From positions 1 through 64,000 of the forward strand of contig CALWUW010000015.1 of assembly GCA_944384815.1 (NCBI GenBank): 64,000 bases of DNA. Direction: 5' to 3'. Origin of the DNA: an uncultured Clostridia bacterium. GTDB lineage: Bacteria; Bacillota; Clostridia; Oscillospirales; Acutalibacteraceae. The position numbers and the translations under genes are program-made. Within the stretch, counting starts at the first letter, position 1; each line of letters starts with the position of its first letter. Below are positions 12,384-42,175 of this stretch, piece by piece. The notes under the pieces are model-generated. The model was not told the origin of the DNA. It made no database searches and worked only from the letters and a program-made list of their open reading frames with translations.

Positions 12384-12680
12384 AAAGGTGCCGAAAAATT
12401 TTCGGTAAAATATGGAAATGTGTTGATGGGGACGGATGGCGGAGCGGCCGTTTCAGAGAGCTGCCGGTTGGTGCAAGGCAGTGCGGTGTCCGCAGGAAAT
12501 CACCCCGGAGCATGCGGCTGAACAGCCTTCCGGTTTTCGGATATGCCCAGTAAGCTTCGCACGGATCCCCTCCGTTAAAAGGGAGCGCATTGTTTGATGC
12601 GAAAAGCGGCCGGTTTTCCGGCAAGTAGAGTGGTACCGCGAGCAGTAGCCCGTCTCTTCGGAGGCGGGTTTTTATTTTTT
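12384..12680 (+). ncRNA. T-box leader, isoleucine specifier proposed
   Basis: The leader carries the conserved T-box core at 12624-12640 (GTGGTACCGCG preceded by AGTAGA), which pairs with the acceptor end of uncharged tRNA. It is followed by a terminator hairpin at 12647-12680 (AGCCCGTCTC-TTCG-GAGGCGGG and a T tract). Upstream lies a typical stem I with the AGAGAG and GGTTGGTGCAAGGC segments (about 12453-12485), and a specifier loop reading GAA-ATC-ACC with ATC at 12499-12501, an isoleucine codon. Uncharged tRNA-Ile should therefore promote read-through into ilvB. This fits the Ile-pathway genes that follow. The specifier assignment is by eye. Confidence 0.88.
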
Positions 12681-12734
12681 GGCGCCCGGTGCAGAGCGTG
12701 CCTGCGCCCTTTGGGCAGAATTGGAGGAATGATC

Positions 12735-19737: not shown

Positions 19738-20286
19738 TTATAGTTTGATCCCATACATACCGGTAAGAGGATCCTGAAACAAAGCGATTTTGGGAGGATA
19801 GAACGTGAAGATAACAAAAAGGGCGGCAATCAGCAGCAAAAGGATCAGATAGATGCGGCTGTTTTCCTGGGAATCTTCGGAAGGAGATGCCAGGGCTTTG
19901 CTGCGTTTGCGAAAAAAGTATCCCCAACAGCCGGCAGTTCCCAGGAAAAACAGACCAATGTCCACAGGGGTAACGGTAAATCCTAAAATTCCGCTGTACG
20001 TATAAAACGGAACCACGATCAAGGCCATACCCAGCAAAATGGACTGGGCAGCAAATTTCCAAGGATATGGGTGCTGATGCCGGGTGAGAATCCATTCTCC
20101 TACGCAGAACAGGAACGCCGGCCAGAACAGCAGCTTTAAATGTTCCCAGACGCTTTCGTTTACGGCGCCTAAAACCGCCCAGAACCACCCGCCAAACCAT
20201 TCATAGACAAAATGCAGCAAAACGCCTGCCACAGCAGTAAAAAGAAATCCCCAGAGACAGTTTCTTCGTATGTTTTTTTGTTCCAT
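19738..20286 (-). CDS. DUF6512-like integral membrane protein
   Basis: A 182-residue protein with about five hydrophobic segments, starting MEQKNIRRNCLWGFLFTAVAGVLLHFVYEW. The WFWAVLGAVNESVWEHLKLLFWP segment is typical of the DUF6512 family of small membrane proteins found across Firmicutes. No catalytic motif is evident and the function is unknown. Start ATG 20286 follows GAAGGAGGG. It is divergent from the GH95-type gene. Confidence 0.75.
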   Translation of the reverse strand: MEQKNIRRNCLWGFLFTAVAGVLLHFVYEWFGGWFWAVLGAVNESVWEHLKLLFWPAFLFCVGEWILTRHQHPYPWKFAAQSILLGMALIVVPFYTYSGILGFTVTPVDIGLFFLGTAGCWGYFFRKRSKALASPSEDSQENSRIYLILLLLIAALFVIFTFYPPKIALFQDPLTGMYGIKL

Positions 20287-20406
20287 AGAATCCCTCCTTC
20301 TAGAAAAGAATATGCAGAAAATCGGGAAACATACGCAGGCAGTCAATTTTTTGGGAAAGCAGCAAATTTTAGATATAGAAATACCACCGGAACGAGCAAT
20401 AGGACA

Positions 20407-20435
20407 TTGACAACTTCTTTGGCTTTTTTTATAAT
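20407..20435 (+). promoter_or_regulatory. Consensus promoter of the GH95-type gene
   Basis: TTGACA (20407-20412), exactly 17 bases, TATAAT (20430-20435): a perfect sigma-A consensus. Leader of about 60 bases to the start at 20500. Confidence 0.85.
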
Positions 20436-20499
20436 ACAGCCAGAATCAGGAAATCTTCTCCGAATCGCGGGGAAGTTCCTGAAAAATGGAGGAGTTTAT

Positions 20500-27154: not shown

Positions 27155-28291
27155 ATGGAGTTTAAGCCGGATTGGGAACAGGCAAAAGAACGGTTCCTTC
27201 AGTTTTGGAACAACGAGAACGAGGAAAGGGCGCTTTTGGCTGTAACAGCCCCCAATCGATTCTTTGACCGTCAAAAGTATTATGAAACCTACGATGTAGA
27301 ACGTTTTGACGATACCGATGCGGAGTCCATCCGCCACTGGTGGTGCGATACGGAAGAAAATGTTCGCCGCAACGAATACCTGTTTTCCACCACCTTTTTT
27401 GGAGGAGAGGCGCTGCCCATAGCCTTTACCAACTGGGGCGCCATGGCGATGTGCTCTTTTTACGGGTGTCAGCCGGTGTTCAATAAAAAAAGCGTCTGGT
27501 ACCATAAAGTCATTGAGGATTGGTCCCAGTGGAAATGGCAGCGGCAGGATAACGAATATCTGAAAGCCACGTTTGATATTACCCGGGCGTTTGCGGAAAA
27601 CGGAGTGGGCCGCTATTTTGCCGGTATGCCGGAACTGGGAAGCGCCGGGGACCTTCTTTCCCTTATGCGTGGCATGGATGATCTCTGCCTGGATGTATAC
27701 GATGAGCCGGAGGCTTTCCATCAGGCAGTGGATTTTCTCACCCGGGAATTTTTGGACCTGCAGGATCAGCTTTGGCCCATTTTGACGCCTACATCCGATG
27801 GAGGCAGCACGCTGCCCTGGATGAGCCTTTGGATGCCTGGGCGGGGCGGAAACCAGCTGGCCTGTGATTTTTCTTGGGTAATTTCCAATGAAACATTTCG
27901 GGAGTTTTTCTTTAAGGAACTGCAGGCAGAAGGCCGTTGGAACGATTATGCCACATACCATCTGGATGGCCCCCAGTGTATGAAAACCCATTTGGACAGT
28001 TTGCTGACCTTGCCGGAGATCAAGGCCATTGAATGGACCCCCGGTGCCGGATGTCCTCCTGCCAGCACGCCGGAATATCTGCCCCGCTACCGGCAGATTT
28101 TGGAATCCGGGAAGAAACTGGTTTTGGTGGCGGATCCGGAAGAAATTGATTTTCTCACAGCGAACCTTCCGCCTCAGGGGGTATTTATTAAAACCACCGC
28201 TGCCTCGGAAGAGGACGCCAAAGCGCTGCTGAAGATTGCGGAACGCAACGCAGCCAACTGGAGGAAAGAGCATAAGGGAGGAACGCTATGA
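27155..28291 (+). CDS. UroD-superfamily protein, putative corrinoid-type methyltransferase
   Basis: A 378-residue soluble protein of the uroporphyrinogen decarboxylase/MtaA superfamily by its TIM-barrel-like pattern (FAGMPELGSAGDLLSLMRG, DEPEAFHQAVDFLTREF, YHLDGPQCMKTHLD). It is not a haem-pathway HemE. The usual His-x-Cys zinc pair is here His-Leu-Asp (YHLDG), and no Cys is clear at the last ligand position, so metal use is doubtful. Start ATG 27155 with AGGGGGAAA. Its stop overlaps the start of the GH51 gene (ATGA), so both proteins are made together. A role in demethylating a sugar or glycoside is inference from that coupling. Confidence 0.72.
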   Translation: MEFKPDWEQAKERFLQFWNNENEERALLAVTAPNRFFDRQKYYETYDVERFDDTDAESIRHWWCDTEENVRRNEYLFSTTFFGGEALPIAFTNWGAMAMCSFYGCQPVFNKKSVWYHKVIEDWSQWKWQRQDNEYLKATFDITRAFAENGVGRYFAGMPELGSAGDLLSLMRGMDDLCLDVYDEPEAFHQAVDFLTREFLDLQDQLWPILTPTSDGGSTLPWMSLWMPGRGGNQLACDFSWVISNETFREFFFKELQAEGRWNDYATYHLDGPQCMKTHLDSLLTLPEIKAIEWTPGAGCPPASTPEYLPRYRQILESGKKLVLVADPEEIDFLTANLPPQGVFIKTTAASEEDAKALLKIAERNAANWRKEHKGGTL

Positions 28292-29799
28292 AAGCGAAAG
28301 CCGTTTTCAGCAAGGATTTTGCCATAGGGGAAGCAGGAGCCAGACTGTATGGTTCTTTTTTGGAGCATGGAGGCCGTGCGGTATATGGCGGCGTGTATGA
28401 GCCGGACCACCCCAACGCCGATTCCCAGGGCCTTCGCCGGGACGTAATGGATTTGGTAAAGGAGCTGCAGGTTTCCGCCGTGCGGTATCCCGGAGGAAAT
28501 TTTGTCTCGGCCTATGATTGGCGGGACAGTATCGGCCCCAAAGAAAAGCGCCCCGTTCGTACGGAGCTGGCCTGGCTTTCTCTGGAAACCAATCAGTTTG
28601 GCCTGGATGAGTTTATGGACTGGTGCAAAAAAACCGGCACAGAGCCTATGATCACGGTGAACCTGGCCACCCGCGGCATTCAGGAAGCCCGGGATATTGT
28701 GGAGTATTGCAATTTTCCGGCGGAAACGGATTTAAGCCGGGAACGGGAGAAAAACGGCCATAAGGAACCTTATGGGGTGAAATTATGGTGTCTGGGCAAT
28801 GAGATGGACGGCGAATGGCAGATGGGCCAGAAAACTGCCGAGGACTATGGTGAGATCGCCAAGCAGGCAGCAAAGGCCATGCGGGCGGTGGATCCGGATA
28901 TAGAGCTGGTGGCTTGCTATAACACCTGCCTGGGGATGGAGAACCATACGGATTGGGGAGACCGGGTGTTGGAGCGCTGCTACGACTATATTGATTATAT
29001 TTCTCTGCATAAATATTGCGCCAACGAGGAGAAAAATACAGGGGATTTTCTGGCGTCCACCCTGGATATGGAAAAATACATAGAGGCGGCCATCGCTTCC
29101 TGTGACCGTGCCAAAGCCCTGGCCCATAGCCAGAAGACGCTGTATCTGAGCTTTGATGAATGGAATGTCTGGTATCATTCCCTGGAACAGGACGCCCACC
29201 GGGAGAAATGGCTGAAAGGCCCGGCGGTGCTGGAAGATATTTATAATGTGGAAGACGCCGTGGTGGTGGGGCTGAACCTGATCCTGCTGCTTCGTCATGC
29301 GGATCGGGTGCGCATCGGCTGTTTGGCCCAGCTGGTGAACGTGATTGCGCCTATTTTTACCCGAAACGGCGGCGAGGCGATCCGTCAGACCATTTTCTAT
29401 CCCTTCCTGCAGGCTTCCCGTTACGGCAGAGGAACCGTACTCCGGGGGATTTTGGAGAGTCCTTCCTATGAATCCCGGTATGGCCAAACGAATTATTTGG
29501 ACGCCACGGCCGTATATAACGAAGAGAAAGAAGAGCTTACCGTTTTTGCCGTAAACCGCAGCCAGGAGGAAGAAATGGAGCTGGAATGCAGCCTGCGGGA
29601 TTTTGCTTTCCTGGAGCTTGTGGAGCATTTGGGGCTTCATCATCCGAATCGCTATGCGGAAAATACATTGGAGCATCCGGATACCTGTCTCCCCATTTCG
29701 GAAACGGGAACTTCCCTGGAGGAAGGCGTCCTGCGGGCAAAGCTGGCGCCGCTTTCCTGGAATGTGATCCGGATTCGTGTGCCTTCGGAGAAAAAGTAA
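28288..29799 (+). CDS. Alpha-L-arabinofuranosidase, GH51
   Basis: A 503-residue intracellular GH51 enzyme with a (beta/alpha)8 barrel and a C-terminal beta domain. The catalytic acid/base is Glu172 in CLGNEMDG and the nucleophile Glu291 in SFDEWNVWY. The N-terminal LYGSFLEHGGRAVYGGVYEPDH and RYPGGNFVSAYDW motifs are standard for the family. It releases terminal arabinofuranose from imported arabinoxylan or arabinan oligosaccharides. Length is normal and no signal peptide is present. It is translationally coupled to the UroD-like gene before it and followed after 85 bases by another UroD-like gene, an unusual setting for a glycosidase. Confidence 0.93.
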   Translation: MKAKAVFSKDFAIGEAGARLYGSFLEHGGRAVYGGVYEPDHPNADSQGLRRDVMDLVKELQVSAVRYPGGNFVSAYDWRDSIGPKEKRPVRTELAWLSLETNQFGLDEFMDWCKKTGTEPMITVNLATRGIQEARDIVEYCNFPAETDLSREREKNGHKEPYGVKLWCLGNEMDGEWQMGQKTAEDYGEIAKQAAKAMRAVDPDIELVACYNTCLGMENHTDWGDRVLERCYDYIDYISLHKYCANEEKNTGDFLASTLDMEKYIEAAIASCDRAKALAHSQKTLYLSFDEWNVWYHSLEQDAHREKWLKGPAVLEDIYNVEDAVVVGLNLILLLRHADRVRIGCLAQLVNVIAPIFTRNGGEAIRQTIFYPFLQASRYGRGTVLRGILESPSYESRYGQTNYLDATAVYNEEKEELTVFAVNRSQEEEMELECSLRDFAFLELVEHLGLHHPNRYAENTLEHPDTCLPISETGTSLEEGVLRAKLAPLSWNVIRIRVPSEKK

Positions 29800-29883: not shown

Positions 29884-30900
29884 ATGACACCCAGAGAACT
29901 TGTGATACAGGCCCTGGAACATAAAGAGACGCCCATTCTTCCCTACCATATGGAGTTTACGGCGCAGGCGCTGGAAAATCTGATCCGGTATACAGGGGAT
30001 CCTCACATTGAGGAAAAAATGGGAAGCTGCCTTTATTATTGGCAGTATTGGGGATGGCCTACGGAGGTTCCCGGAAAGCCCGGCGTGTTTCGGGACGATT
30101 TCGGCGTGGAATGGGATCGAAACGGAGCGGATAAAGACATTGGTCTGCCTTTGGAATATCAGATCGAGGATCTGGAGGACTGCGACTATGTGTTCCCAAC
30201 GGTGGACGAAGCCCGGCTGCGGGCGCAGTATGAGAAAATGATGCGGGAAAAGGGCGACCGTTTTTGCATGGCCGGCTTTGGGTTTGTTATGTTTGAGCGG
30301 TTATGGAGCCTGATGTCCATGGAGAATGCGTTGGTGAGCATGGTGGCCTGTCCGGAAGAGCTGGAAGCCTTTCTGGATCGCATTTGCGATTATTTCTCCC
30401 ATTTGGTGGACATTGCTTTGGAATATGATTTTGACGGTATTTATTTCGGAGATGACTGGGGCCAGCAAAAAGGCCTGATCATGGGCCCCCAGCACTGGCG
30501 CCGGTTTATTCGGCCCCGGATGGAAAGATTATATGCCAAAGTGAAGAAAGCCGGGCTGTATGTGATACAGCATTCCTGCGGGGACTGCAGTGAAATTTTG
30601 CCGGATCTGGTAGAGATGGGCCTGGATTGTTACCAGACGTTCCAGCCGGAAATTTACGATATCAGCCGCATCAAAAAAGAATACGGGGATCGTTTGTCTT
30701 TCTGGGGAGGAATTTCCACCCAGCGCTGCCTGCCTTATGCCACGCCGGAGGAAGTCAAGAAAGAAGCCCGGCGCATTGCGGATATCCTTGGGCCGGGAGG
30801 CGGCTATATCTGGGCGCCTACCCACGCCATCGCTTTCGATGTGCCGCCGGAAAACTGTCTGGCGCTGGCTCAGGTGTTTCAGGAGCAAGATCCTAAATAA
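29884..30900 (+). CDS. UroD-superfamily protein, MtaA/CmuA-like
   Basis: A 338-residue protein of the MtaA/UroD superfamily. It starts MTPRELVIQALEHKETPILPYHMEF, close to the MtaA-type opening. His230-Ser-Cys232 (QHSCGDCSEILP) forms the expected zinc pair; the last ligand position reads APTHAIAF, offering His instead of Cys. FGDDWGQQKGLIMGPQHWRRFIRPR is typical of the family. In methylotrophic metabolism such enzymes move methyl groups between a corrinoid protein and a thiol acceptor, or act directly on methylated substrates. It is third in the transcript with the GH51 gene and ends at a terminator shared with a convergent paralogue. Confidence 0.8.
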   Translation: MTPRELVIQALEHKETPILPYHMEFTAQALENLIRYTGDPHIEEKMGSCLYYWQYWGWPTEVPGKPGVFRDDFGVEWDRNGADKDIGLPLEYQIEDLEDCDYVFPTVDEARLRAQYEKMMREKGDRFCMAGFGFVMFERLWSLMSMENALVSMVACPEELEAFLDRICDYFSHLVDIALEYDFDGIYFGDDWGQQKGLIMGPQHWRRFIRPRMERLYAKVKKAGLYVIQHSCGDCSEILPDLVEMGLDCYQTFQPEIYDISRIKKEYGDRLSFWGGISTQRCLPYATPEEVKKEARRIADILGPGGGYIWAPTHAIAFDVPPENCLALAQVFQEQDPK

Positions 30901-30941: not shown

Positions 30942-32045
30942 TCAGCGATTGCGAATATACGCGGAGATGCTTTTGAATTTTTCCAAAGATACTCCGGGCG
31001 GGCAGCTGTCGCTGTTAGCCAGGATAAAGGCGGTGCCGTCCAAAGTGTCACACAGATCCTGGGTTTGCCGCAGCAGTTCTTCTTCCGGGGCGTTCAGGAA
31101 TACCGTAGGCTCCACACCCCCGATGAGAGCAATGTTGCTGGGAAGAAGGGGGCGGGCTTCCTGGAGGGAAATATTCCCTGTGGGGGGCGGAGAGATGGAC
31201 TCGATGCAGTCGATCTTGGATGTGGCAAAGGTGGGCAGCAAATTCCGCAAATGCCCGCAGGCATGGTGAATGAAACGCTTTCCGCCGGCGTGGAGAATGT
31301 CGCACCAACGGTTGATTTCCGGCATAATGTATTCCGCAAACTGGAAGGGGGAGGTGTTTGTGGTGGAAGAGTCTTCCCAGGAGATCACAAACTCCGCCTT
31401 GGAGGCTGCGGCGATTTCCGCCGCCCGGATGGAAACGGTTTTCATGGCGTGTAAGGTTTCCAGCACCGTGTCCTCATAATCCGCCATGGCATAGGCCAGA
31501 TTTTCTACACCCACCCAGTTTTCCAGCAAAGACTGGAAAGAAGATTTTCCACAAGGCGGAAGGAGGGGAACCAGCAGGGCTTCCTCCCCATATTGCTGGG
31601 AAAGTGTATCAAAAGCCGTGTAATTCGGTTCTAAAACCGTATGCTCCATAATATAGGTAAGGGTTTTGAAATCCTCTTCTTCCTTTAAGGGATGCCCCAC
31701 CAAAAACCAGGAGTTGCTTGCCGGGGTGTAGCGATATACGCTTTCCAGGGTTCCCACAGGCGTTTCCTGGAACACGGTTTGCAAATCGCCGCTGGCGGTG
31801 CTGCGGGTCTGGCAGTTCTGAACGGACTTAGAATACAGGACCAGATCCTGCGCGCCTTCCTGGGACCAGGGATGGTGGCCCCGGATCAGAGGATCGGCTC
31901 CAATGGATTTTAAAAATTCCACTTCTCCCATTTTCTGCAGGGAGGGGCTTTGTGCGTCCCACCAATAGGCCAAAAAAGGTGACCAGGGGATTCGCGGAAC
32001 AGGTTCGCCTTTTAAAGCGGCTGTCAGCAGTTCTTTTGCAGTCAT
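30942..32045 (-). CDS. UroD-superfamily protein with complete zinc-site ligands
   Basis: A 367-residue MtaA/UroD-type protein. Among the five paralogues in this window it alone keeps the full MtaA-like ligand set: His261 and Cys263 in HHACGH and Cys348 in NSDSCPPG, as needed to bind zinc and activate a thiol methyl acceptor. I place the start at ATG 32045 (MTAKELLTAALKG) because GGAGG lies 8 bases upstream; ATG 32051 is too close. Divergent from the AraC regulator at 32159, across about 110 bases. Candidate for the methyl-accepting (second) methyltransferase of the corrinoid pathway, by motif only. Confidence 0.8.
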   Translation of the reverse strand: MTAKELLTAALKGEPVPRIPWSPFLAYWWDAQSPSLQKMGEVEFLKSIGADPLIRGHHPWSQEGAQDLVLYSKSVQNCQTRSTASGDLQTVFQETPVGTLESVYRYTPASNSWFLVGHPLKEEEDFKTLTYIMEHTVLEPNYTAFDTLSQQYGEEALLVPLLPPCGKSSFQSLLENWVGVENLAYAMADYEDTVLETLHAMKTVSIRAAEIAAASKAEFVISWEDSSTTNTSPFQFAEYIMPEINRWCDILHAGGKRFIHHACGHLRNLLPTFATSKIDCIESISPPPTGNISLQEARPLLPSNIALIGGVEPTVFLNAPEEELLRQTQDLCDTLDGTAFILANSDSCPPGVSLEKFKSISAYIRNR

Positions 32046-32158
32046 ACGCATTTCCTCCGTATCGCTTTTCCGGAATGTGTTCGGCAGAGAAAACCCTTTC
32101 CGGAAAGTGGTTTCTATCTTCAGTATAGATTGGTTTTAAAGGAATGTAAATTCAGATT

Positions 32159-33130
32159 ATGAAGAACTATAACACAAAATTAAACAATTTCCTTTCTCCT
32201 ACTCAAGAGGTAGTAGAAATCCCCCTGACCATGCCACCTCGGGTGACTATGCTGGGGCATACCATTTGCCGTAAGGATTGGAGTTTGGAGCCAAGAGTCC
32301 TGGGAGAATATGAGCTTCTGGTGGTTACGGAAGGAGAATGCTTCTTCACCGTAGACGAACAGGAGATTTTATTGAAGAAAAAAGAATATGTTCTGCTTCC
32401 TCCCGGAGTGAAGCACAGCGCCCGGTTGACCCAGGAAAAAAGCGGATGCCAGTTTTACTATGTGCATTTTTCTGCCAAATCCGGTTCCTGCTGGAGCACG
32501 GAGGATTTCTGCCTGCAAGCTTCCGCCATTCGTTTGGCGAAAGCTTCCGGAGAAGATTTTTATGTGATTTCCGGCCGTTTTTTCCGCAGTGCGGCTCTTT
32601 TGAAAAAAGGCAGTATCGGGGAAGAATATCCGGAAGTTACGGCTTGCTTTGAGCGGGCCATTCTGGAAAGGAACCGTCCTTTTATCAACACAGGAACCAT
32701 GCTGGAATGTTACGTAAGCCAGGTTTTGTGCTTTTTGACCCGGAGCACGTTTAAGGTCCTTCAGATGGATTGCGTCTGGGAATCACGAGGAGAACTGCCT
32801 GCTGTGATCCAGGAAGCGCTGGAATACATCCACGAAAATCTTTCCGCAGGGCTAACGGTGCAGACTTTGAGCAGCTTTCTGCATATTTCGCCCCAGCATT
32901 TGATCCGGATGTTCCGAAAATATGTAGGAACCACGCCCGGGCAATATATTAACCTGCTGGTAGTGGAAAAAAGCAAGGAATACCTCCGGGATACCAACCG
33001 TACCATCAAAGAGATCTCTTATTTGCTGGGAGTGGATAACCCTCATTATTTCAGTTATCTGTTTAAAAAGATTGAAGGCATTCAGCCGGCGGAATACCGC
33101 CGGATTCACGACAGTCTGCCCAATACCTGA
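32159..33130 (+). CDS. AraC family regulator with N-terminal cupin-like domain
   Basis: A 323-residue regulator. The N-terminal about 130 residues form a cupin-like sensor (GECFFTVDEQEILLKKKEYVLLPPGVKH). Two helix-turn-helix units follow at the C-terminus from about 215 (LEYIHENLSAGLTVQTLSSFLHISPQHLIRMFRKYVGTTPGQYI, then RTIKEISYLLGVDNPHYFSYLFKK). This layout is typical of sugar- or substrate-sensing activators. It stands between the two UroD-like blocks, divergent from the UroD-like gene at 30942-32045, and probably regulates one or both. Confidence 0.87.
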   Translation: MKNYNTKLNNFLSPTQEVVEIPLTMPPRVTMLGHTICRKDWSLEPRVLGEYELLVVTEGECFFTVDEQEILLKKKEYVLLPPGVKHSARLTQEKSGCQFYYVHFSAKSGSCWSTEDFCLQASAIRLAKASGEDFYVISGRFFRSAALLKKGSIGEEYPEVTACFERAILERNRPFINTGTMLECYVSQVLCFLTRSTFKVLQMDCVWESRGELPAVIQEALEYIHENLSAGLTVQTLSSFLHISPQHLIRMFRKYVGTTPGQYINLLVVEKSKEYLRDTNRTIKEISYLLGVDNPHYFSYLFKKIEGIQPAEYRRIHDSLPNT

Positions 33131-33149: not shown

Positions 33150-34403
33150 TTATGTTTTTAATTTTTCCCGGAAAGAGCGGGGGTTTTCTCCCGTGATGCG
33201 TTTAAATACTTTGGTAAAATAGCTCTGGTCCTCATAGCCTACCAGCTGAGAAATTTCAGCTAGGGAAAGCTCTGGGTGGCGAAGAAGCTCCTGAGCCTTT
33301 CCGATACGTACCTGATTCAGGTATTGGTTGAAGGTCACGCCAGTTTCCTGCTTGAAAATACGGCTGAGATAGGGCGGGGAAAGATAGACCATGGCAGCGG
33401 TGCTTTCCAAAGTGATATGGCTTCCGTATTGGCTTCCGATATGCTGCACACAGCGGTGGATAATGTTGGCGTGTTTGGCATCCAAAAAGGAGAAGGCATT
33501 TTCCATAAACTGATTGATCACATCCGAAAGCCAGACACACATGGCATCCAGGGACTGAAATTTCTGGATGGTGACAAAATTCTGCCGGTTTTGCGCCAAG
33601 ATGCGGGAGCGGTCCGTGCCGTTTTCCGCTGTCACTCGGGAAATCAGCACCAAAAGCTCGTAGATCCGGCTTTTGATCAGCTCCAGATTTCCCCCTTCCG
33701 CAAACAAAATGGCGCCTAGCAGTTCATTCAGCAGACGTTGGGCCGTTTCCTTGTCCCCTCTGAAAATGCTTCGAAGCAAAGCTTCTTCGGTTTCAAAGGG
33801 GTATTCCGGAGCGGCATTTTCCCCTTTCAGCTCCAGGATATAGGAAGTGATCTGCCCCTGAATCTTCTCCGACCGTTCCGCGTGGAGCAGACGATTTTCT
33901 GCGGATACATTGTTCATAAACCCAACGGACATAAATAAAAGCATGGATAAGGAATTCACCTTTTCCGGAGAGATAAAGGGCACGTCCTCCAAAATTTGCC
34001 GGGCTTTTTCCAGGGCTTCTCCGGAAAGGTGAAAATTTTCTGTTAGCTCACAGTCTGTAAAATCCTGCTTTTCCACCATAATGAAAGGGCCCGCGGTAAT
34101 TTTGGCAGCGCTGCCTTTGTCCCCTAAAATAGGAGAAACAAAGCAGGTAAGGCCCATAGGGCAGAAATAAATATATTGGCCTCCGAAACGTTCCGCTTCC
34201 CACATGCCGTAAATATGAGCATTGACACATTTTTCCCGGGGAAACTGCACAGCGGAGCACATTTTACAGCTTTCGCAGCCATAGCCGTATTCTGCCAGAA
34301 TGGTTCCTTCCTTATCCGAAACCGTGCAGCCAAGGCCGGTGGAAGTGGAAAAAGCCTGGGCGCATTCGCAGGCTAGTTTTTTATCAAAGGTTTCCGATTT
34401 CAA
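33150..34403 (-). CDS. PocR-AraC family regulator
   Basis: A 417-residue protein with an N-terminal PocR ligand-binding domain (FSTSTGLGCTVSDKEGTIL, with the clustered cysteines CESCKMC and REKC) and a C-terminal AraC helix-turn-helix pair from about 310 (IIHRCVQHIGSQYGSHITLESTAAMVYLSPPYLSRIFKQ). PocR domains sense small organic molecules and are known from propanediol utilisation and from regulators beside corrinoid methyltransferase genes. The start is TTG 34403, 7 bases after GGAGG. It faces the corrinoid protein operon across about 195 bases and is the natural candidate for its activator. Confidence 0.88.
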   Translation of the reverse strand: MKSETFDKKLACECAQAFSTSTGLGCTVSDKEGTILAEYGYGCESCKMCSAVQFPREKCVNAHIYGMWEAERFGGQYIYFCPMGLTCFVSPILGDKGSAAKITAGPFIMVEKQDFTDCELTENFHLSGEALEKARQILEDVPFISPEKVNSLSMLLFMSVGFMNNVSAENRLLHAERSEKIQGQITSYILELKGENAAPEYPFETEEALLRSIFRGDKETAQRLLNELLGAILFAEGGNLELIKSRIYELLVLISRVTAENGTDRSRILAQNRQNFVTIQKFQSLDAMCVWLSDVINQFMENAFSFLDAKHANIIHRCVQHIGSQYGSHITLESTAAMVYLSPPYLSRIFKQETGVTFNQYLNQVRIGKAQELLRHPELSLAEISQLVGYEDQSYFTKVFKRITGENPRSFREKLKT

Positions 34404-34598: not shown

Positions 34599-35240
34599 AT
34601 GAGTATTCTTACTGACATTTCTGAGAACCTGCAGCGTGGAAAAGCGAAAGTTGTAAAGGAACTGGTGCAGCAGGCTATTGATGAGGGAATCCCTGTAAAA
34701 CAGATTCTGGACGAAGGCCTTCTGGATGGCATGAACGTGATCGGCGAAAAATTCAAGAACAACGAAGTGTTTGTTCCGGAAGTTTTGGTGGCGGCCAGAG
34801 CCATGAACATGGGTGCCACGCTTTTGAAGCCCCTGCTGGCGGAAGCCGGCGTAGAGGCCACCGGCAAGGTGTGTATCGGTACGGTTAAGGGAGACCTGCA
34901 TGACATCGGAAAGAATCTGGTAAAGATGATGATGGAAGGTAAGGGCCTGGAAGTTGTGGATTTGGGAACGGACGTGGATCCCGAGACCTATGTGCGCACC
35001 GCTAAGGAGCAGAATTGCCAGATCATCTGCTGCTCCGCTCTGTTGACCACCACCATGGGCGTTATGGGCGAAGTGGTAAAGAAAGCGGAAGAAGAAGGCA
35101 TTCGGGATAAGGTTCGCATCATGGTAGGCGGCGCGCCGGTAACGGATGCATTCTGCCAGCAGATCGGTGCGGATAAATATACCCCCGATGCGGCCAGCGC
35201 GGCGGACGCAGCGGTAGAACTTTGCAAATCTTTGGCATAA
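34599..35240 (+). CDS. Corrinoid protein of a methyltransferase system (MtbC/MtgC-like)
   Basis: A 213-residue cobalamin-binding methyl carrier. The N-terminal helical cap (residues about 1-88, EGLLDGMNVIGEKFKNNEVFVPEVLVAARAM) precedes a Rossmann-like B12 domain with D99-L-H101-D-I-G104, where His101 is the lower axial ligand, and the later SALLTTTMGVMGEVV and GGAPVTDAF motifs. It accepts a methyl group on Co(I) from the substrate methyltransferase and hands it to the second methyltransferase. Strong ribosome binding site AAGGAGAGG. First gene of the module and followed 13 bases later by the UroD-thioredoxin-like fusion. Confidence 0.94.
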   Translation: MSILTDISENLQRGKAKVVKELVQQAIDEGIPVKQILDEGLLDGMNVIGEKFKNNEVFVPEVLVAARAMNMGATLLKPLLAEAGVEATGKVCIGTVKGDLHDIGKNLVKMMMEGKGLEVVDLGTDVDPETYVRTAKEQNCQIICCSALLTTTMGVMGEVVKKAEEEGIRDKVRIMVGGAPVTDAFCQQIGADKYTPDAASAADAAVELCKSLA

Positions 35241-35253
35241 CGGCGGGGGAAGT

Positions 35254-36612
35254 ATGACGGGAAAAGAACTGATTTTTAAAACTCTTCGCCATGAGGCGAC
35301 ACCGCGGGCTCCCTGGGTGCCCTTTGCAGGTGTCCACGCCGGTCTGCTTACCGGAGCGGATGCCACCCAGGTTCTTACCGACGAGGAAGAGCTGGTAAAA
35401 GCTCTGCTGGAAGTCAACCGGCTTTATAAGCCCGACGGGCAGCCGGTGGTATTCGATCTGCAGCTGGAAGCGGAGATCCTGGGCTGCGACCTGGTTTGGG
35501 CCAAGGATTGCCCGCCCAGCGTTTCCACCCATCCCCTGGCGGAAACCATGACGGTTCCCTGCCGCTGCAAATTGCCTACAGCGGAAAAAGGCCGTATGCC
35601 TATGGTACTTTCCGCCATGCGGCGGATGAAGGAAGCTGTGGGAGAGACCACCGCCCTTTACGGCTTGCTTTGCGGTCCCTTTACTCTGGCCAGTCATCTC
35701 CGCGGCAATGATATTTTCATGGATATGTTTGACGATGAGGACTACGTGAAGGATCTTCTGGCCTTCTGTACGGACTGCGCCAAGCGTATGAGCGATCTCT
35801 ACCTGGAAGCCGGTATGGACGTGGTGGCTGTGGTGGATCCTTTGGTGAGCCAGATCTCCGCGGATCATTTTGAGGAATTCCTTTCGGAGCCGTATACGGA
35901 AATTTTCCGGTATCTGCGGGAAGAAAAGAAGGCGTTCTCTTCCTTCTTTGTATGCGGAAACGCCACCCGGAATATCGAAGTGATGTGCAAAACCGCTCCG
36001 GATTCCATTTCCGTGGATGAAAACGTGGACATCCTGGAAGCCAAAAAGATCTGCGACCAGTACAATGCAGCCATCGGCGGAAATATTCCCCTTACGTCCA
36101 TTATGCTGCACGGAACCCAGCAGGACAATATGAAGTATGTGGTGGATCTTTTGGAGCAGCTTCCGGAATACCGGAACTTTATTGTGGCCCCGGGCTGTGA
36201 TATGCCCTACGCGGTTCCTGTGGAAAATGCTATCGGCGCCGCTCAGGCTGTCCTGGAAACGGAATCCGTCCGGCATATGGTGGAAAACTATGTTTCCCAG
36301 CAGGAGGATGTGGACGTACAGCTTCCGGATTATCAGAACCTACAGAAGCCCCTGGTGGAGGTTTGTACGCTGGACAGCGCCACCTGCGCGGCCTGCACCT
36401 ATATGATGGGCGCGGCCAACGCGGTAAAAGAAGTGTTTGGCGACCGGATCGACATGGTGGAGTATAAATTTACGGAAAAAGAGAACATTGCCCGCTTTAA
36501 GAAGATGGGTGTCAAAAGTTTGCCCTCCATTTATGTGAACGGCGTGCTGTGTTTCTCGTCCATTATTCCTAGCCGGGATGAGCTGGTGGAAGAAATCCAG
36601 AAAGTACTGTAA
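35254..36612 (+). CDS. UroD/MtaA-type protein fused to thioredoxin-like domain
   Basis: A 452-residue two-domain protein. Residues 1 to about 345 form an MtaA/CmuA-type barrel (LLCGPFTLASHLRGND, VVDPLVSQISADHFEEFLSEPY). The zinc pair is Phe-Val-Cys234 rather than His-x-Cys, with Cys315 in APGCDMP. Residues about 368-452 look like a thioredoxin-fold domain: C378-A-A-C381, then GVKSLPSIYVNG with the expected cis-proline. Encoded 13 bases after the corrinoid protein, so it should be a direct methyl-transfer partner. The added redox-type domain might deliver or regenerate a thiol, or hold the corrinoid reduced; this is inference. Ends before a terminator-like hairpin. Confidence 0.85.
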   Translation: MTGKELIFKTLRHEATPRAPWVPFAGVHAGLLTGADATQVLTDEEELVKALLEVNRLYKPDGQPVVFDLQLEAEILGCDLVWAKDCPPSVSTHPLAETMTVPCRCKLPTAEKGRMPMVLSAMRRMKEAVGETTALYGLLCGPFTLASHLRGNDIFMDMFDDEDYVKDLLAFCTDCAKRMSDLYLEAGMDVVAVVDPLVSQISADHFEEFLSEPYTEIFRYLREEKKAFSSFFVCGNATRNIEVMCKTAPDSISVDENVDILEAKKICDQYNAAIGGNIPLTSIMLHGTQQDNMKYVVDLLEQLPEYRNFIVAPGCDMPYAVPVENAIGAAQAVLETESVRHMVENYVSQQEDVDVQLPDYQNLQKPLVEVCTLDSATCAACTYMMGAANAVKEVFGDRIDMVEYKFTEKENIARFKKMGVKSLPSIYVNGVLCFSSIIPSRDELVEEIQKVL

Positions 36613-36653
36613 CGGATAGAGCATATAGGCTATAGGCTATAGGATATAGGTTC
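36613..36653. repeat. Short degenerate repeat tract
   Basis: Three to four copies of an ATAGGCT/ATAGGAT-type unit (period about 8) directly after the stop of the UroD-thioredoxin-like gene. Resembles other repeat-like tails in this window in position but not in sequence. Confidence 0.6.
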
Positions 36654-36715
36654 AGGCGGCCGTAGGGCGTGTTTGCTTCTGAAAAGAAGGTAGAACGGCT
36701 GCGGCCGCCTTTTTT
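36654..36715 (+). terminator. Terminator-like hairpin inside the corrinoid module
   Basis: AGGCGGCCG (36654-36662) pairs with CGGCCGCCT (36702-36710), followed by TTTTT. The loop is long (about 40 bases) and holds a small inner hairpin. It separates the corrinoid protein pair from the GTPase-radical SAM-activator genes, so the latter may be expressed at a lower level by read-through. Confidence 0.7.
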
Positions 36716-36739
36716 AGGGATGGAGAAAGGGGAAATGTC

Positions 36740-37639
36740 ATGATCCCCCTGTATTTGATCACAGGCTTTTTGGGCGCTGGGAAAACCACCCTGATGAAAA
36801 ACTTGATCCGGCTGTTTTCTTCCGGGACGGTTCATCTGATTATCAATGAATTTGGCAGGGAAGGGGTGGACGGCGCCCTTTTGCGGGACCGCGGCGCTAC
36901 TTTGTCCGAAATCAATAACGGCTCGGTATTCTGCGCCTGCCGGCTGGAAACCTTTGAGCAGGAGCTGGAGCGCTCTGCGGATCTGGGCCCGGATGTGATC
37001 CTGGTGGAGACCAGCGGCCTTTCGGATCCTACGCAGATCCTCAGCGTGGCGCACCGGCATCCCCGCCTGGAATACCAGGGAAGCATTTGCGTGGCGGATA
37101 CCTCCCGGCTGACCAAAACCCTGGCCTGCGCCCAGGCCTGTTCCAGGCAGCTGGAAGTTTCGGAGCTGATCCTTCTTAATAAGGCGGATCTGGTTTCGCC
37201 CCAGCGGCTGGAAGCAGCCCGGGAACAGATCCTGGCCATTCAGCCCCACGCCCGGATCTATATCACCCAGTTCGGGGCCATTGAAAAGCAGTGGCTGGAC
37301 GGCTTGCATCCCATAGAGAAGGAGCCGGGAGATTCTTCCATGGATATTACCCTTCAGAAGGCCTGGGTGCAGCTGCAGCCAAATTTAACGGAAGCAAAGC
37401 TTTTGGCGCTTTTGGAGCGTTTGGTCACCGGATCGGACCGAATCAAAGGCTTTGTGGGGCTTAAGGAAAAAAATGTTCTGGTGGACTGCACCGGAGAGGC
37501 TGTGCGTCTTCTCCCTTGGGACGGGGAGGCGGAAAACCGGTTGATGCTGCTGGCCGGAAAGGGGATGCCCCTGCGGAAAACCATTTTAGATGCAAAAAAG
37601 CAAGATGAGGAATGGATTGCAAAGGTGGAATGGGGATGA
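36740..37639 (+). CDS. CobW/G3E family GTP-binding protein
   Basis: A 299-residue P-loop GTPase of the G3E family. The Walker A is GFLGAGKTT at about 8-16, the family Cys motif reads FCAC (SVFCACRLE), and the base-recognition motif appears as LLNKADL. G3E proteins (CobW, UreG, HypB, MeaB relatives) act as metal or cofactor chaperones. Within this operon it may load or protect the corrinoid or a metal (zinc or cobalt). Its stop overlaps the start of the radical SAM gene (ATGA at 37636-37639), so it is translationally coupled to it. Confidence 0.87.
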   Translation: MIPLYLITGFLGAGKTTLMKNLIRLFSSGTVHLIINEFGREGVDGALLRDRGATLSEINNGSVFCACRLETFEQELERSADLGPDVILVETSGLSDPTQILSVAHRHPRLEYQGSICVADTSRLTKTLACAQACSRQLEVSELILLNKADLVSPQRLEAAREQILAIQPHARIYITQFGAIEKQWLDGLHPIEKEPGDSSMDITLQKAWVQLQPNLTEAKLLALLERLVTGSDRIKGFVGLKEKNVLVDCTGEAVRLLPWDGEAENRLMLLAGKGMPLRKTILDAKKQDEEWIAKVEWG

Positions 37640-38616
37640 AGAAAATGTGGGAGGAAAGCCTCCTTCAGGGAGAGCTCAGCCGGGTAAAGGCACTGGAATT
37701 GCTGGAGCTGCCTACGGAAGGCCCGGAATTTGAAGCGCTGCTGCAAGCGGCGGATACATATTCTCGAAACACATTTCAGGGAAAGGGAAAAATTTTCGCC
37801 CAGATCGGGCTGGATTGGCAGCCCTGCAGCGGAGGCTGTCAGTTTTGCAGCTTAGCGGCTGCCTGCGGAAATCAGGAGGGTCCCTTTTATCGGGACCCGG
37901 AAGAAACAGCGGCTTTAGCCGGCCGGCTGGCCCGTTCCGGCGGGGAGGATATTTTTCTGATGACTACGGCGGATTATCCCCGGGAGCAATTTCTTTCCAT
38001 AATAGCCGCCGTCCGGAAAGCGATTCCGGAAGGGACCCGTCTGGTAGCCAATACAGGGGATTTTGACCTTGCCTACGCCCGGCGGCTGAAAGAGGCGGGA
38101 TGCACAGGCGCCTACCACATTTGCCGTCTTCGGGAAGGGGTGGACACCGCTATTCCTCTCCAGCGGCGGATGCAGACCCTGGAAGCCATACGGGATGCCG
38201 GGTTGGAACTGTATTACTGTGTGGAGCCTATCGGGCCGGAGCATACCAACGAGGAATTGGTGGAGGAAATGCTGCGAATTCGGGATTTCCCTGTGGGAGT
38301 TATGGCCGTGATGAAGCGGGTGGCTGTGCCGGGAACGAAATTGGCGGCAAATGGAGAGATTCCTTCCCAAAAATTGGCCCAGATCTGCGCTGTGGCCACA
38401 TTGCTTTGCCGCCCTGAGCGTGCTATGGGTGTTCATGAGCCGGATCGTCTTTGCCTGAGATCCGGCGCCAATCAGATTTACGGGGAATACGGCGTGAATC
38501 CCCGGGATACGGAAAGGAACACCGAAGAAAACAGAGGCTATTCTCTGGAAAAAGCCCAAAAACTTTTGGAAGAGACCGGATGGTCCTGCCAAAAAGGAGG
38601 AGTTTGCAATGATTGA
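37636..38616 (+). CDS. Radical SAM protein, BioB/HydE-like
   Basis: A 326-residue radical SAM enzyme. The iron-sulfur site is C64-x3-C68-x2-C71 (PCSGGCQFCSLA), followed by barrel segments (GGEDIFLMTTADYPREQFLS, ELYYCVEPIGPEHTNEELVEEM) and a C-terminal part resembling biotin synthase/HydE (VAVPGTKLAANGEIPSQKLAQICAVATLLC). I use ATG 37636 since AGGTGG lies 7 bases before it and it overlaps the GTPase stop. Its reaction is unknown. Genes of this type are not part of classic methyltransferase systems, so its tight coupling here deserves attention. Confidence 0.87.
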   Translation: MKKMWEESLLQGELSRVKALELLELPTEGPEFEALLQAADTYSRNTFQGKGKIFAQIGLDWQPCSGGCQFCSLAAACGNQEGPFYRDPEETAALAGRLARSGGEDIFLMTTADYPREQFLSIIAAVRKAIPEGTRLVANTGDFDLAYARRLKEAGCTGAYHICRLREGVDTAIPLQRRMQTLEAIRDAGLELYYCVEPIGPEHTNEELVEEMLRIRDFPVGVMAVMKRVAVPGTKLAANGEIPSQKLAQICAVATLLCRPERAMGVHEPDRLCLRSGANQIYGEYGVNPRDTERNTEENRGYSLEKAQKLLEETGWSCQKGGVCND

Positions 38617-39163
38617 AGATCGTTTGACAGAGCTTACGAAACAAATTGAGGAAATGGGAGCCAACCATGCCGGATGGATTCCGGTGGAAAAAATTACCTT
38701 TGACCCCTATTTCCGCGAAATGTGCAAAGCCAATGCCTGTGGGAATTACGGCAAATGCTGGATGTGCCCCCCGGATGTGGGTGATATCCATGAGCTGATT
38801 CAAGAAGCCAAGCAGTTTCAGTATGCTATTGTCTATCAAACCATCGGCACATTGGAGGATAGTTACGATTTTGAGGGAATGATGGAGGCCGGAGGCCGTC
38901 ATAACCAGCTGGCCCGCAAGATTTTTGACGCGTTTTCCCAGATGCCTTTTTCTCGGAAACTGCATTTGGGAGCGGGAGGATGCCGGGTTTGCCCGGTATG
39001 CGCCAAGCGGGAAAATAAACCCTGCCGCCATCCGGAACTGGCCATGGCTTCTTTGGAGACCTACGGCGTGAACGTTTCGGAGTTGGCCGCGTCCTGCGGG
39101 ATGAAATACATCAATGGCCCGGATACGGTGACGTATTTCGGAGCTGTGCTTTTGACGGAGTGA
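38609..39163 (+). CDS. DUF2284 cysteine-rich metal-binding protein
   Basis: A 184-residue soluble protein with two cysteine clusters: residues about 33-50 (MCKANACGNYGKCWMCPP) and about 125-147 (GGCRVCPVCAKRENKPCRHP). This matches DUF2284, predicted metal-binding proteins often found beside corrinoid methyltransferases and radical SAM enzymes. The clusters could hold iron-sulfur centres. The start overlaps the radical SAM gene's end by 8 bases, showing translational coupling. Function unknown; electron transfer to the corrinoid activator is one possibility. Confidence 0.86.
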   Translation: MIEDRLTELTKQIEEMGANHAGWIPVEKITFDPYFREMCKANACGNYGKCWMCPPDVGDIHELIQEAKQFQYAIVYQTIGTLEDSYDFEGMMEAGGRHNQLARKIFDAFSQMPFSRKLHLGAGGCRVCPVCAKRENKPCRHPELAMASLETYGVNVSELAASCGMKYINGPDTVTYFGAVLLTE

Positions 39164-39167
39164 GACC

Positions 39168-40667
39168 ATGGCCAGATTAACCATAGGAGAAACCACCTTC
39201 CAGGTTCCGGAAGGAATATTGCTTTCCCAGGCGCTGTATGGGAAAAGCGCTTTGGAGATGCCTTGCGCCGGCCAGGGACGCTGCGGTAAATGCCGGGTTC
39301 GGGTGCAGGGAGAATTGACCCCTCCGGGAGAGGAAGAGAAAAAGCATCTTTCCCGGAAAGAGCTGGAATCCGGCATCCGCTTGGCGTGCCAGACCCGGAT
39401 CCTGGGAGATTGCCGGGTGGAATCCCGAAAAGATTCCGCTTCCCAGATCCAGGGGTCCGGCCAGGAGCGGCCGGTGGAGGGAACGCCGCTGTTTTCCCGT
39501 TACGGCGCGGCGGTGGATGTGGGCACCACCACGTTGGCTGCCCGGCTGTATGGCAAAGAAGGTATGCTGGCCCAGGCGTCTGCCTTAAACCGGCAGAACC
39601 GGATGGGGGCGGACGTGATCTCCCGGATCGAAAAATCCCTGGCCGGTTATGCCGGAGAGCTGGCGGATTCCATCCGGCAGGATATTTCCGCTTTGCTGAA
39701 GGAAATGGCCGCAGAAGCAGGCATTTTGCCGGAAGAGATAGACGCTGTGGTGATCACCGGAAATACAGCCATGCTGTACTTTTTAACGGAAAGCTGCCCG
39801 GAGCCTTTTTCCCACGCGCCCTTTCAGGCGGACCGGCTGTTTGGAGAGACGGTTTCCGGAGAGGATCTGGAGCTGCCCTGCCCAAAGGCCAGGGTGTATC
39901 TTCCTCCCTGCATCTCTGCGTTTGTAGGCGCGGATATTACCACCGCTTTGCTTTCCAGCGGGCTTTGCAGCGGAGAAGACACAAAGCTTCTGGTGGATAT
40001 TGGCACAAACGGCGAAATGGCTCTATGGCATAAGGGGGAGCTGTTTTGCTGCTCCACAGCGGCCGGCCCTGCCTTTGAAGGCGCAGGGCTTTCCATGGGC
40101 ATGGGAGGCCGGGAAGGAGCCGTGGACCATGTGTCCCTTTCTCAGCAGGAACCGGGGGGAATGAAAGCCCACGTGATCGGTGACGGGGAGCCTATAGGAA
40201 TCTGCGGCAGCGGCGTAATTGATGCGGTGGCCTGCCTTTTGGAGCTGGAACGGCTGGATGAAACCGGATATATGGAAGAGGAGCGGGAGGAGATCCTTCC
40301 TCCTGTGGGGCTGACGCAAAAAGACGTCCGCATGATCCAGCTGGCTAAAAGCGCCATTTGCGCTGGGTTGGAAACGCTGATGGAAACTCGGCAGCTTTCT
40401 CCGGAGCAAATAGGTGAGCTTTGCATCGCCGGGGGATTTGGAAGCTATCTGAATGTGGAGAACGCAGGCAGGATCGGGCTGATCCCGGAAAAATTGGTGC
40501 CGCGAGTCCACGTAGTAGGCAACGCGGCTCTTGCCGGCGCCTGCCGTTTGCTTCTTTCCCGGGAGGAAATGGAAATTTGCCGGGACATCGCCCGCCAGGC
40601 CCATACGGTGGAGCTATCCTCCAATCCTCTTTTTATGGAGAAATACACGGAGGGAATGTTCTTCTAA
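39168..40667 (+). CDS. Corrinoid reductive activator (RACo-like ferredoxin-ASKHA protein)
   Basis: A 499-residue protein. The N-terminal about 85 residues are a 2Fe-2S ferredoxin domain (C33-x5-C39-x2-C42 and a last Cys in RLACQT). A linker and an ASKHA ATPase-like domain of the DUF4445/RACo family follow (AAVDVGTTTLAARLY near 112, VDIGTNGEMALW, GICGSGVIDAVACLL, IAGGFGSYLN). Such proteins use ATP to reduce inactive Co(II) corrinoid to Co(I) so that methyl transfer can resume. Starts 4 bases after the DUF2284 gene. Its presence makes the corrinoid module functionally self-contained. Confidence 0.92.
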   Translation: MARLTIGETTFQVPEGILLSQALYGKSALEMPCAGQGRCGKCRVRVQGELTPPGEEEKKHLSRKELESGIRLACQTRILGDCRVESRKDSASQIQGSGQERPVEGTPLFSRYGAAVDVGTTTLAARLYGKEGMLAQASALNRQNRMGADVISRIEKSLAGYAGELADSIRQDISALLKEMAAEAGILPEEIDAVVITGNTAMLYFLTESCPEPFSHAPFQADRLFGETVSGEDLELPCPKARVYLPPCISAFVGADITTALLSSGLCSGEDTKLLVDIGTNGEMALWHKGELFCCSTAAGPAFEGAGLSMGMGGREGAVDHVSLSQQEPGGMKAHVIGDGEPIGICGSGVIDAVACLLELERLDETGYMEEEREEILPPVGLTQKDVRMIQLAKSAICAGLETLMETRQLSPEQIGELCIAGGFGSYLNVENAGRIGLIPEKLVPRVHVVGNAALAGACRLLLSREEMEICRDIARQAHTVELSSNPLFMEKYTEGMFF

Positions 40668-40786
40668 GGGTAAAAGAGCAGAAAAGCGAAAGAGCAAAAA
40701 GAGGATGCCTCTGATTCAGGCGTTTTGATCCGGTTAGAATAAACTGTGAAGAGAAAAAATTTGCGCTTTTGGGAGGAGGTCTGCAG

Positions 40787-42031
40787 GTGAAAGACAGAGA
40801 GATTTTGCGGGAACTGATCTGCCGGTACGCGGAAGCGGCCAACGCTCCCCGTAATCGGGAAGCTATGGAGGTAGGGCGGAATGTTAACGATCTGAAATCC
40901 AGCCGGCCGGCGGTTTTATTGGGAGAAATTCCCTGGCATGAGTTAAATGAAAACGGAGAGCTTACACTGCAGTGTCAGGATCCGTACTGGCACCCTTTGG
41001 AAGAAATGCTCCGGCGGACATTGTTCCAGAACCGGTATTTCCCCGGGGATATGATGATCGCACCCTATCTCTGGGTGGATAAGAAGATCCATTCCACGGG
41101 GATTGGCGTGGAGATCCAGGAAGAAATCCGGGTAACGGACCAGAAAAACGGGATCGTTTCTCATAAATACCAGAATCTGATCCAGAGAGAAGAAGATCTG
41201 GAAAAGCTTCACCCGCCGGTGATCTCCTATGACGAAGCAGGTACCATGGAGGATTTTTACCGCCTGGCGGATTTGGCGGCGGATCTGCTGCCGGTGAAGA
41301 TTCGGGGCGCCGCCACCGGCTACGGCTTGGGTTGCACCAACTGGGATACCATTTCCCAGCTGATGGATATTGACACCATGCTGCTGCGGATGCTGGATGA
41401 ACCGGAGCTGATGCACGCGCTGGTCCAGAAGCTGACGGATCTTTTCCTTTCAGAAATGCGGCAGTATGAAGAAATGAACCTTTTGGACGGGGATGCTCTG
41501 TATATCCATGAAACCCCGGCTTTGTCCCAGGATCTGGCCAGTGAACCCATGGACCGGCAGCACGTGAAACTGAAAAACGTGTGGGGAAGAGGGCTGGCAC
41601 AGATTCTCTCCACGGTTTCCCCGGCGATGCACCAGGAGTTTGACATTGCTTATATGAAAAAGGCCATGGAGCCTTTCGGCTTGGTATACTATGGCTGCTG
41701 CGAGCCTTTGGACCGTAAGATCAAGATCCTGGAAGAGATCCCTCATTTGCGGAAGATCTCCATTTCTCCCTGGGCGGACGTAAATGTGGCGGCGGAAGTT
41801 ATAGGAAACCGCTATGTGGCTTCGGTCAAACCTAATCCGGCTTTTGTGGCAGGGCCCAATCCGGATTTTGATGTGATCCGCAAAGATCTGGAAAACAGCA
41901 TCCGTGCCTGCCGGAAAAACAATACGCCCTTTGAACTGGTGCTGAAAGATATCAGCACCGTTAGTTATCGTCCGGATACGTTGGTAAAATGGGAGCAGCT
42001 GGCCATGAGCCTTGCGAAAAACATGGATTAA
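40787..42031 (+). CDS. Large UroD-superfamily protein, divergent
   Basis: A 414-residue protein of the UroD/cobalamin-independent methionine synthase-like group. Barrel segments include KIRGAATGYGLGCTNWDTISQLMD, MDIDTMLLRMLDEPELMHALVQKL and YYGCCEPLDRKIKILEEIPHLRKISISPWADV. The usual His-x-Cys is replaced by YGCC and no late Cys ligand is seen; a long N-terminal extension of about 90 residues is specific to this type. The start is GTG 40787, 7 bases after GGGAGGAGG. It is the last gene of the corrinoid module and a candidate for the substrate-specific first methyltransferase, by elimination. Confidence 0.78.
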   Translation: MKDREILRELICRYAEAANAPRNREAMEVGRNVNDLKSSRPAVLLGEIPWHELNENGELTLQCQDPYWHPLEEMLRRTLFQNRYFPGDMMIAPYLWVDKKIHSTGIGVEIQEEIRVTDQKNGIVSHKYQNLIQREEDLEKLHPPVISYDEAGTMEDFYRLADLAADLLPVKIRGAATGYGLGCTNWDTISQLMDIDTMLLRMLDEPELMHALVQKLTDLFLSEMRQYEEMNLLDGDALYIHETPALSQDLASEPMDRQHVKLKNVWGRGLAQILSTVSPAMHQEFDIAYMKKAMEPFGLVYYGCCEPLDRKIKILEEIPHLRKISISPWADVNVAAEVIGNRYVASVKPNPAFVAGPNPDFDVIRKDLENSIRACRKNNTPFELVLKDISTVSYRPDTLVKWEQLAMSLAKNMD

Positions 42032-42132
42032 CAGGTGAGAGCCCTGTTGGCGGAAAGATGAAAAACCATAGTGTAACAGCGTAACGGCGTAACAATGTAT
42101 AAGAAAAGCCAGTGGTGAAAAGTAAATATCCG
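42032..42132. repeat. Degenerate GTAAC-type tract after the last UroD-like gene
   Basis: Contains GTGTAACAGCGTAACGGCGTAAC-like sequence in which a GTAAC unit recurs about every 9 bases (42069-42093). Similar GTAAC repeats occur at 60761-60786. No gene is seen. Confidence 0.5.
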
Positions 42133-42175
42133 GGGCCGGTTCTTTTGTTTTTAACAGAAGAACCGGCCCTTTTTC
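42133..42175 (+). terminator. Terminator of the corrinoid module
   Basis: GGGCCGGTTCTT / AAGAACCGGCCCTTTTT, a strong stem with a T tract, about 100 bases after the last UroD-like gene. Confidence 0.9.

Follow-up and report, generated by a model that had tools for sequence, protein, structure and literature searches.

How does a corrinoid protein receive and pass on its methyl group when none of the usual first methyltransferases is encoded beside it? The question is raised by a gene cluster at positions 34,599 to 42,031 of a 64,000-nucleotide stretch of DNA, here called the window, from an uncultured Clostridia bacterium of the Acutalibacteraceae (assembly GCA_944384815.1, contig CALWUW010000015.1). 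The original prediction read the cluster as a self-contained corrinoid methyl-transfer module in which a UroD-fold protein, most likely that at 40787-42031, is the substrate enzyme and the substrate is new. The cluster represents a variant form of corrinoid methyl-transfer system, of the kind that relies on UroD-fold enzymes. Examination of the open reading frames (ORFs) of the window confirmed seven of them at the predicted coordinates, all on the plus strand, and domain calls from Pfam and NCBIfam bore out the first six parts, the last ORF having no match at 1e-3. The parts are as follows:

34599..35240, plus strand: COR, a stand-alone methyltransferase corrinoid protein (GDLHDIG motif, read from the sequence)
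35254..36612, plus strand: UTX, an MtaA-fold domain (residues ~1-340) with a fused thioredoxin domain (~370-452); F232 stands where MtaA has its zinc His, C234 and C315 are retained, and the thioredoxin domain has CAAC
36740..37639, plus strand: G3E GTPase (CobW family), partner of UTX (domain match)
37612..38616, plus strand: BioB-like radical SAM protein, associated with UTX (CxxxCxxC, read likewise)
38609..39163, plus strand: DUF2284 protein, Cys-rich (domain match); its gene often adjoins the RACo gene
39168..40667, plus strand: RACo-type reductive activator of COR (N-terminal 2Fe-2S domain and RACo ASKHA domains)
40787..42031, plus strand: DUR, a divergent UroD-fold protein and candidate substrate methyltransferase (YGCC motif)
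42132..42170, plus strand: intrinsic terminator-like hairpin of 18 pairs, 3' of DUR; the next gene begins at 42321

The seven genes are predicted to form, and likely do form, one transcription unit because the GTG start codon of DUR, which follows the RACo gene after a gap of 119 bases, is preceded by GGAGG, and because the hairpin lies behind the DUR stop codon. The operon is B12-dependent and probably moves methyl groups between small molecules; at its centre is UTX, a methyltransferase of a kind that has been little studied. The DUF2284 protein is possibly an Fe-S protein.

Which methyltransferases could serve COR? The source genome (37 contigs totalling 2.0 Mb, completeness 92.6%) was searched for them. 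Neither MttB nor MtaB has a match anywhere in it, in agreement with the original prediction, which had noted their lack in the cluster and named a close homologue just outside or elsewhere, shown to use COR, as a finding that would overturn it; a hidden MttB or MtaB is rejected on this search of the 92.6% complete genome. The pterin-binding domain PF00809, found in MetH, AcsE and FolP, likewise has no match (13/14 control genomes were positive), which is the ground for rejecting a folate-accepting second methyltransferase. The MetE domain PF01717 also gave no match, with 10/14 control genomes positive, and the searches with PF00809, PF02607 and PF01717 revealed neither a known methionine synthase nor a known dihydropteroate synthase (PF02574 was not searched). 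The genome has a single B12-binding_2 (PF02607) protein, which is COR, along with eight URO-D matches and two DUR-type proteins, one in the window and one on contig C34. Hence, the candidate methyltransferases seen for COR are UroD-fold proteins only, and this, together with the lack of PF00809, points to a system of the UroD type that probably does not hand its methyl group to folate.

The first of these proteins, UTX, has the MtaA fold and an altered metal site. The soluble methylcobalamin:coenzyme M methyltransferases MtaA and MtbA have HxC...C zinc ligands; in UTX, in contrast, the zinc His is replaced by Phe, a thioredoxin domain is fused to the enzyme, and the score against TIGR01463 (147.4) falls below the curated NCBIfam cut-off of 235.4. 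The replacement is found in 81/81 UTX proteins, all of which keep both Cys and the CxAC motif. These 81 are the window protein and the best 80, with at least 61% identity, of at least 561 candidate stretches detected by tblastn (E 1e-3 or better). A relative with 44% identity also has Phe-x-Cys. The stretches listed include some from cultivable bacteria, such as Butyricicoccus pullicaecorum DSM 23266 and Caldicoprobacter oshimai DSM 21659.

The neighbourhoods of these genes were surveyed in 80 contig loci plus the window, in 40 regions around DUR copies and in 40 regions that surround COR or UTX in related genomes. Regrouped by content, the surveys yielded 85 UTX loci (the 81 and four loci of relatives), 40 COR loci without UTX and 36 DUR-only loci, several of the COR and DUR comparison loci coming from the same genomes. 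Relatives of the G3E GTPase occur in 77/85 UTX loci, and those of the radical SAM protein in 18/85; both are absent from the COR loci without UTX (0/40) and from the DUR-only loci (0/36). Two of the UTX loci, L222 and L225, have contigs equal in length to those of L085 and L097 and probably duplicate them, in which case the counts would become 75/83 and 18/83. In 11 UTX loci the radical SAM gene is present without COR. The other parts are shared: COR is found in 42/85 UTX loci, and RACo, DUF2284 and PocR occur in 39/85, 18/85 and 40/85 UTX loci and in 18/40, 16/40 and 19/40 COR loci without UTX. A core made of COR, DUF2284, RACo and PocR is thus shared, whereas the UroD enzymes are exchangeable, and we read the window operon as this common corrinoid core joined to a set made of UTX, GTPase and radical SAM protein. 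The seven-gene order for which the original prediction suggested a survey recurs without DUR, its other six genes being preceded by PocR (PocR-COR-UTX-G3E-radical SAM-DUF2284-RACo), in Candidatus Anaerofilum (L051) and Gemmiger sp. An120 (L052). Searches of the open subset of PubMed Central, supplements not included, turned up no paper in which a UroD-thioredoxin fusion is described together with a G3E GTPase.

Other genes were seen to recur around COR and UTX. A small-protein family is present in 14/81 UTX loci (e.g., L098:4673-4966), directly upstream of UTX in seven of them, and the one member scanned is PadR-like. A DUF1638 protein and a protein of some 679 amino acids that resembles hydantoinase A recur in L220 and L232 (L220:3198-6198 and L232:4519-7517), the former with relatives in L057, L064, L081, L108, L111 and L120, and the latter with relatives in L070, L094 and L114. 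A single COR gene can also have several different URO-D family genes alongside, as in L221:5347-12942, L223 and L233.

The last gene of the operon, DUR, is the one that had been singled out as the substrate enzyme. A profile search gives no relative with a solved structure; its predicted model resembles UroD and MtaA, which bears out the UroD nature proposed for it, and its YGCC motif is invariant in 20/20 aligned sequences. Profile alignment of DUR and UTX gave no usable match of residues (probability 49.5, with the motifs misaligned), and an equation of YGC with HxC and of Asp388 with the third Cys, which follows from strand order alone, was not used as evidence. Every genome in which a member of the DUR family was found has a stand-alone COR as well (26/26, against a background of 55/148; p ~6e-14, kinship ignored). 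Two marginal rows were left out of this count, G115 (4.6e-5) and a second fragment of G122; G115 also has a stand-alone COR, and the count would be 27/27 if it were kept. In four other genomes DUR is part of a COR gene cluster. Three of these clusters (L174, L179 and L194) have as second enzyme an MtaA-like protein, scored with NCBIfam for L174 and L179, that keeps HNC and a later Cys; in the fourth, L172, no MtaA-like second enzyme is seen before the contig ends. A role as substrate-side or other methyltransferase is reasonable because of the UroD-like model, the co-occurrence and the four COR clusters, and it is plausible that DUR is the substrate enzyme. As a constant part of the module DUR is ruled out, since relatives occur in only 7/81 UTX loci, window included. 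A scan of 125/130 listed neighbours of DUR copies outside COR clusters produced nothing decisive as a substrate signature; the families are mixed, with six AraC-type, four URO-D and three GFO/IDH/MocA members.

Upstream of the operon lie two further UroD-family genes and two regulators:

33150..34403, minus strand: PocR-domain/AraC regulator, divergent from the operon (domain match)
32159..33130, plus strand: AraC-type regulator (domain match)
30942..32051, minus strand: UB, URO-D family, candidate methyltransferase (HxC...C, read from the letters)
29884..30900, plus strand: UA, URO-D family, MtaA-like (HxC; the third ligand position aligns to His)

The original prediction passed over these flanking candidates and the inconstancy of DUR. 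UA and UB rank equal to DUR as candidates for the substrate enzyme, and the assignment of that role to DUR, favoured by the evidence given above, is tempered by this equality and by the absence of DUR from the conserved gene order. A sugar context for UA is possible because it lies directly 3' of an alpha-L-arabinofuranosidase-type gene (28288-29799). The window also harbors a GH95-type glycosidase gene at 20212-22779 and a T-box leader (Rfam RF00230, 104.4 bits) at 12414-12660, at the start of the ORF running from 12594 to 14405.

How might these parts work together? RACo would reduce COR to Co(I), with the DUF2284 protein as a possible electron-transfer partner, and DUR or a flanking UroD enzyme would move the methyl group from the donor onto COR. 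Methyl-COR would then give it up to an acceptor through the action of UTX, the acceptor being most likely a thiol rather than folate. RACo and DUF2284 would repair Co(II), while UTX would use its thioredoxin domain to hold either the acceptor or its own active-site cysteines in the reduced state. Maturation of the altered UTX site, or its loading with metal, would be the task of the dedicated G3E GTPase and sometimes also of the radical SAM protein. We infer the catalytic steps, their direction, the acceptor, the maturation and the identity of the substrate-taking UroD enzyme from gene content, predicted folds, the lost ligand, co-occurrence and the absence of other methyltransferases in the genome searched. 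Taken as a whole, this scheme of a UroD-type corrinoid methyl-transfer system seems to us slightly more probable than improbable. A bolder version is possible, although rather doubtful: UTX would represent a widespread class of MtaA-fold methyltransferases that do not use the canonical His-Cys-Cys zinc site. A dedicated G3E GTPase, joined in part of the family by a BioB-like radical SAM enzyme, would build or load the active site, the enzyme's own thioredoxin domain would recharge it, and methyl transfer between corrinoid protein and thiol would proceed in a folate-free manner.

Several observations weigh against the scheme. Every absence from the genome is provisional because 92.6% completeness leaves room for missed genes. 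In L051 and L052 the operon is the same but for DUR, which is missing, and 36/40 DUR regions contain no COR; DUR may therefore be accessory. The zinc His that UTX lacks is a mark of thiol methyltransferases of the MtaA fold. The pairing of DUF2284 and RACo, whose genes adjoin in 13/17, 2/7 and 8/14 cases, is weaker outside UTX loci. Lastly, UTX and its GTPase are found on contigs other than that of COR in G137 and G197, and UTX need not, therefore, act in the order of the operon.

Is the substrate new? UroD-superfamily first methyltransferases (MtvB, OdmB, VdmB, CdmB and MtoB) are a known class in the excerpted text of PMC13222342; by description, they combine a UroD-fold substrate enzyme with a corrinoid protein and an activase, as proposed here for DUR. 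For this reason the lack of MtaB and MttB is no evidence for a new substrate, and the novelty claimed by the original prediction is unproven and was overstated. In the Cdm system described there the methyl group goes to folate via CdmA, unlike here, where no PF00809 protein is found. The mec cassette for dichloromethane, as far as it is described in the corresponding text of PMC9768040, shares with the window an MtaA/CmuA-family methyltransferase, corrinoid components and a PocR domain in its sensor. It differs, however, in its gene set, in that the sensor is a two-component histidine kinase, and in the folate-based route proposed for it.

Type 1 mlp clusters (Kountz and Balskus, PMC10418091) offer a further comparison. 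As outlined in the main text of that paper, they occur in anaerobes, most genera being Firmicutes, and share with the window the clustering of a corrinoid protein and an activase (Ram/RACE there) with MtaA-like UroD proteins, with no folate methyltransferase in the cluster. The window differs in adding a G3E GTPase, a radical SAM protein and DUR, and in the thioredoxin domain and Phe-Cys-Cys site of UTX; the site of mlp proteins is His-Cys-Cys, exceptions being allowed for Mlp1, and UB shows HxC...C. The main text, supplements excluded, mentions neither CobW nor radical SAM nor DUF, and thioredoxin once, in a reference title. Selenide salvage has been proposed for most mlp clusters. In the source genome, however, the best selD match reaches 31.7 bits against a cut-off of 125 (selA, selB and selC were not searched), and we keep selenide salvage as a rival only, because no selD exceeds the cut-off. 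The same text reports selenocysteine machinery in 87% of mlp species, so that the selenium trait is not strictly defining.

These clusters lend substance to an alternative that we regard as possible, if somewhat unlikely: UTX would be a demethylase that passes the methyl group of a methyl-sulfur or methyl-selenium compound to COR, UB or another HxC...C enzyme would make the methylated product, and DUR would be accessory. The DUR-less order in L051 and L052 fits this idea, as does the pairing of UTX with its GTPase where the locus has no COR; moreover, the available text of PMC10418091 proposes demethylation of methyl-selenium compounds by MtaA-like proteins. The invariant Phe of UTX, set against a zinc site that is His-Cys-Cys in all mlp proteins but several Mlp1, and the weak selD match speak against it.

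An improbable alternative is that the module feeds methionine synthesis, with scavenged methyl groups passing through COR to homocysteine in place of MetH and MetE. No MetH (no PF00809, no second PF02607) and no PF01717 was seen in the source genome, and a MetH-like match is present in the two genomes of the same genus, for which the searches gave no UTX, DUR or stand-alone COR. Among the matches listed for 198 related genomes and tallied by hand, a MetH-like match is rarer where a stand-alone COR is present (27/66) than where it is not (96/132; Fisher p 2e-5, kinship and completeness ignored, all matches in genomes without a stand-alone COR being scored as MetH-like); the MetE-type domain occurs in 15/198. 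In L220, a stand-alone homocysteine S-methyltransferase (PF02574, 8759-9601) adjoins COR in divergent orientation, and the genome also has UTX. Core-MetE provides a precedent for methyl transfer from methylcobalamin to homocysteine (PMC7005905, in part). The COR/MetH pattern weakly suggests a methionine link. However, 3/6 UTX genomes have a MetH-like match (one of the six unscored), a relative of the homocysteine enzyme appears in 1/241 records only, and methionine auxotrophy, which would explain the absences, is the simpler reading.

Ordinary acetogen O-demethylation of the MtvB/OdmB/VdmB kind, in which DUR would be a remote form of first methyltransferase and a folate methyltransferase would have escaped detection, is very unlikely: it has the same set of parts, including a known class of first enzyme (PMC13222342, in part), and a PocR domain as in the mec sensor (PMC9768040, in part), but the lack of PF00809 proteins in a search positive in nearly all controls leaves no known folate methyltransferase, the 40 COR or UTX regions contain 12 proteins labelled MtaA-like (at least 280 amino acids), and three MtaA-like proteins score best, below cut-off, with methylcobalamin:coenzyme M models.

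The anaerobes examined repeatedly have UroD-fold proteins in the surroundings of corrinoid proteins, most of them with no role assigned, and the analysis separates a shared corrinoid core from exchangeable UroD enzymes. Within the latter, the UTX family stands out for the loss of the zinc His in all members examined and for its tie to a GTPase and a thioredoxin domain. Its altered metal site makes this widespread family worth testing, and the metal content of UTX, its need for the GTPase, the DUF2284 protein as a possible electron donor and DUR as a possible methyl-taking enzyme are concrete targets.
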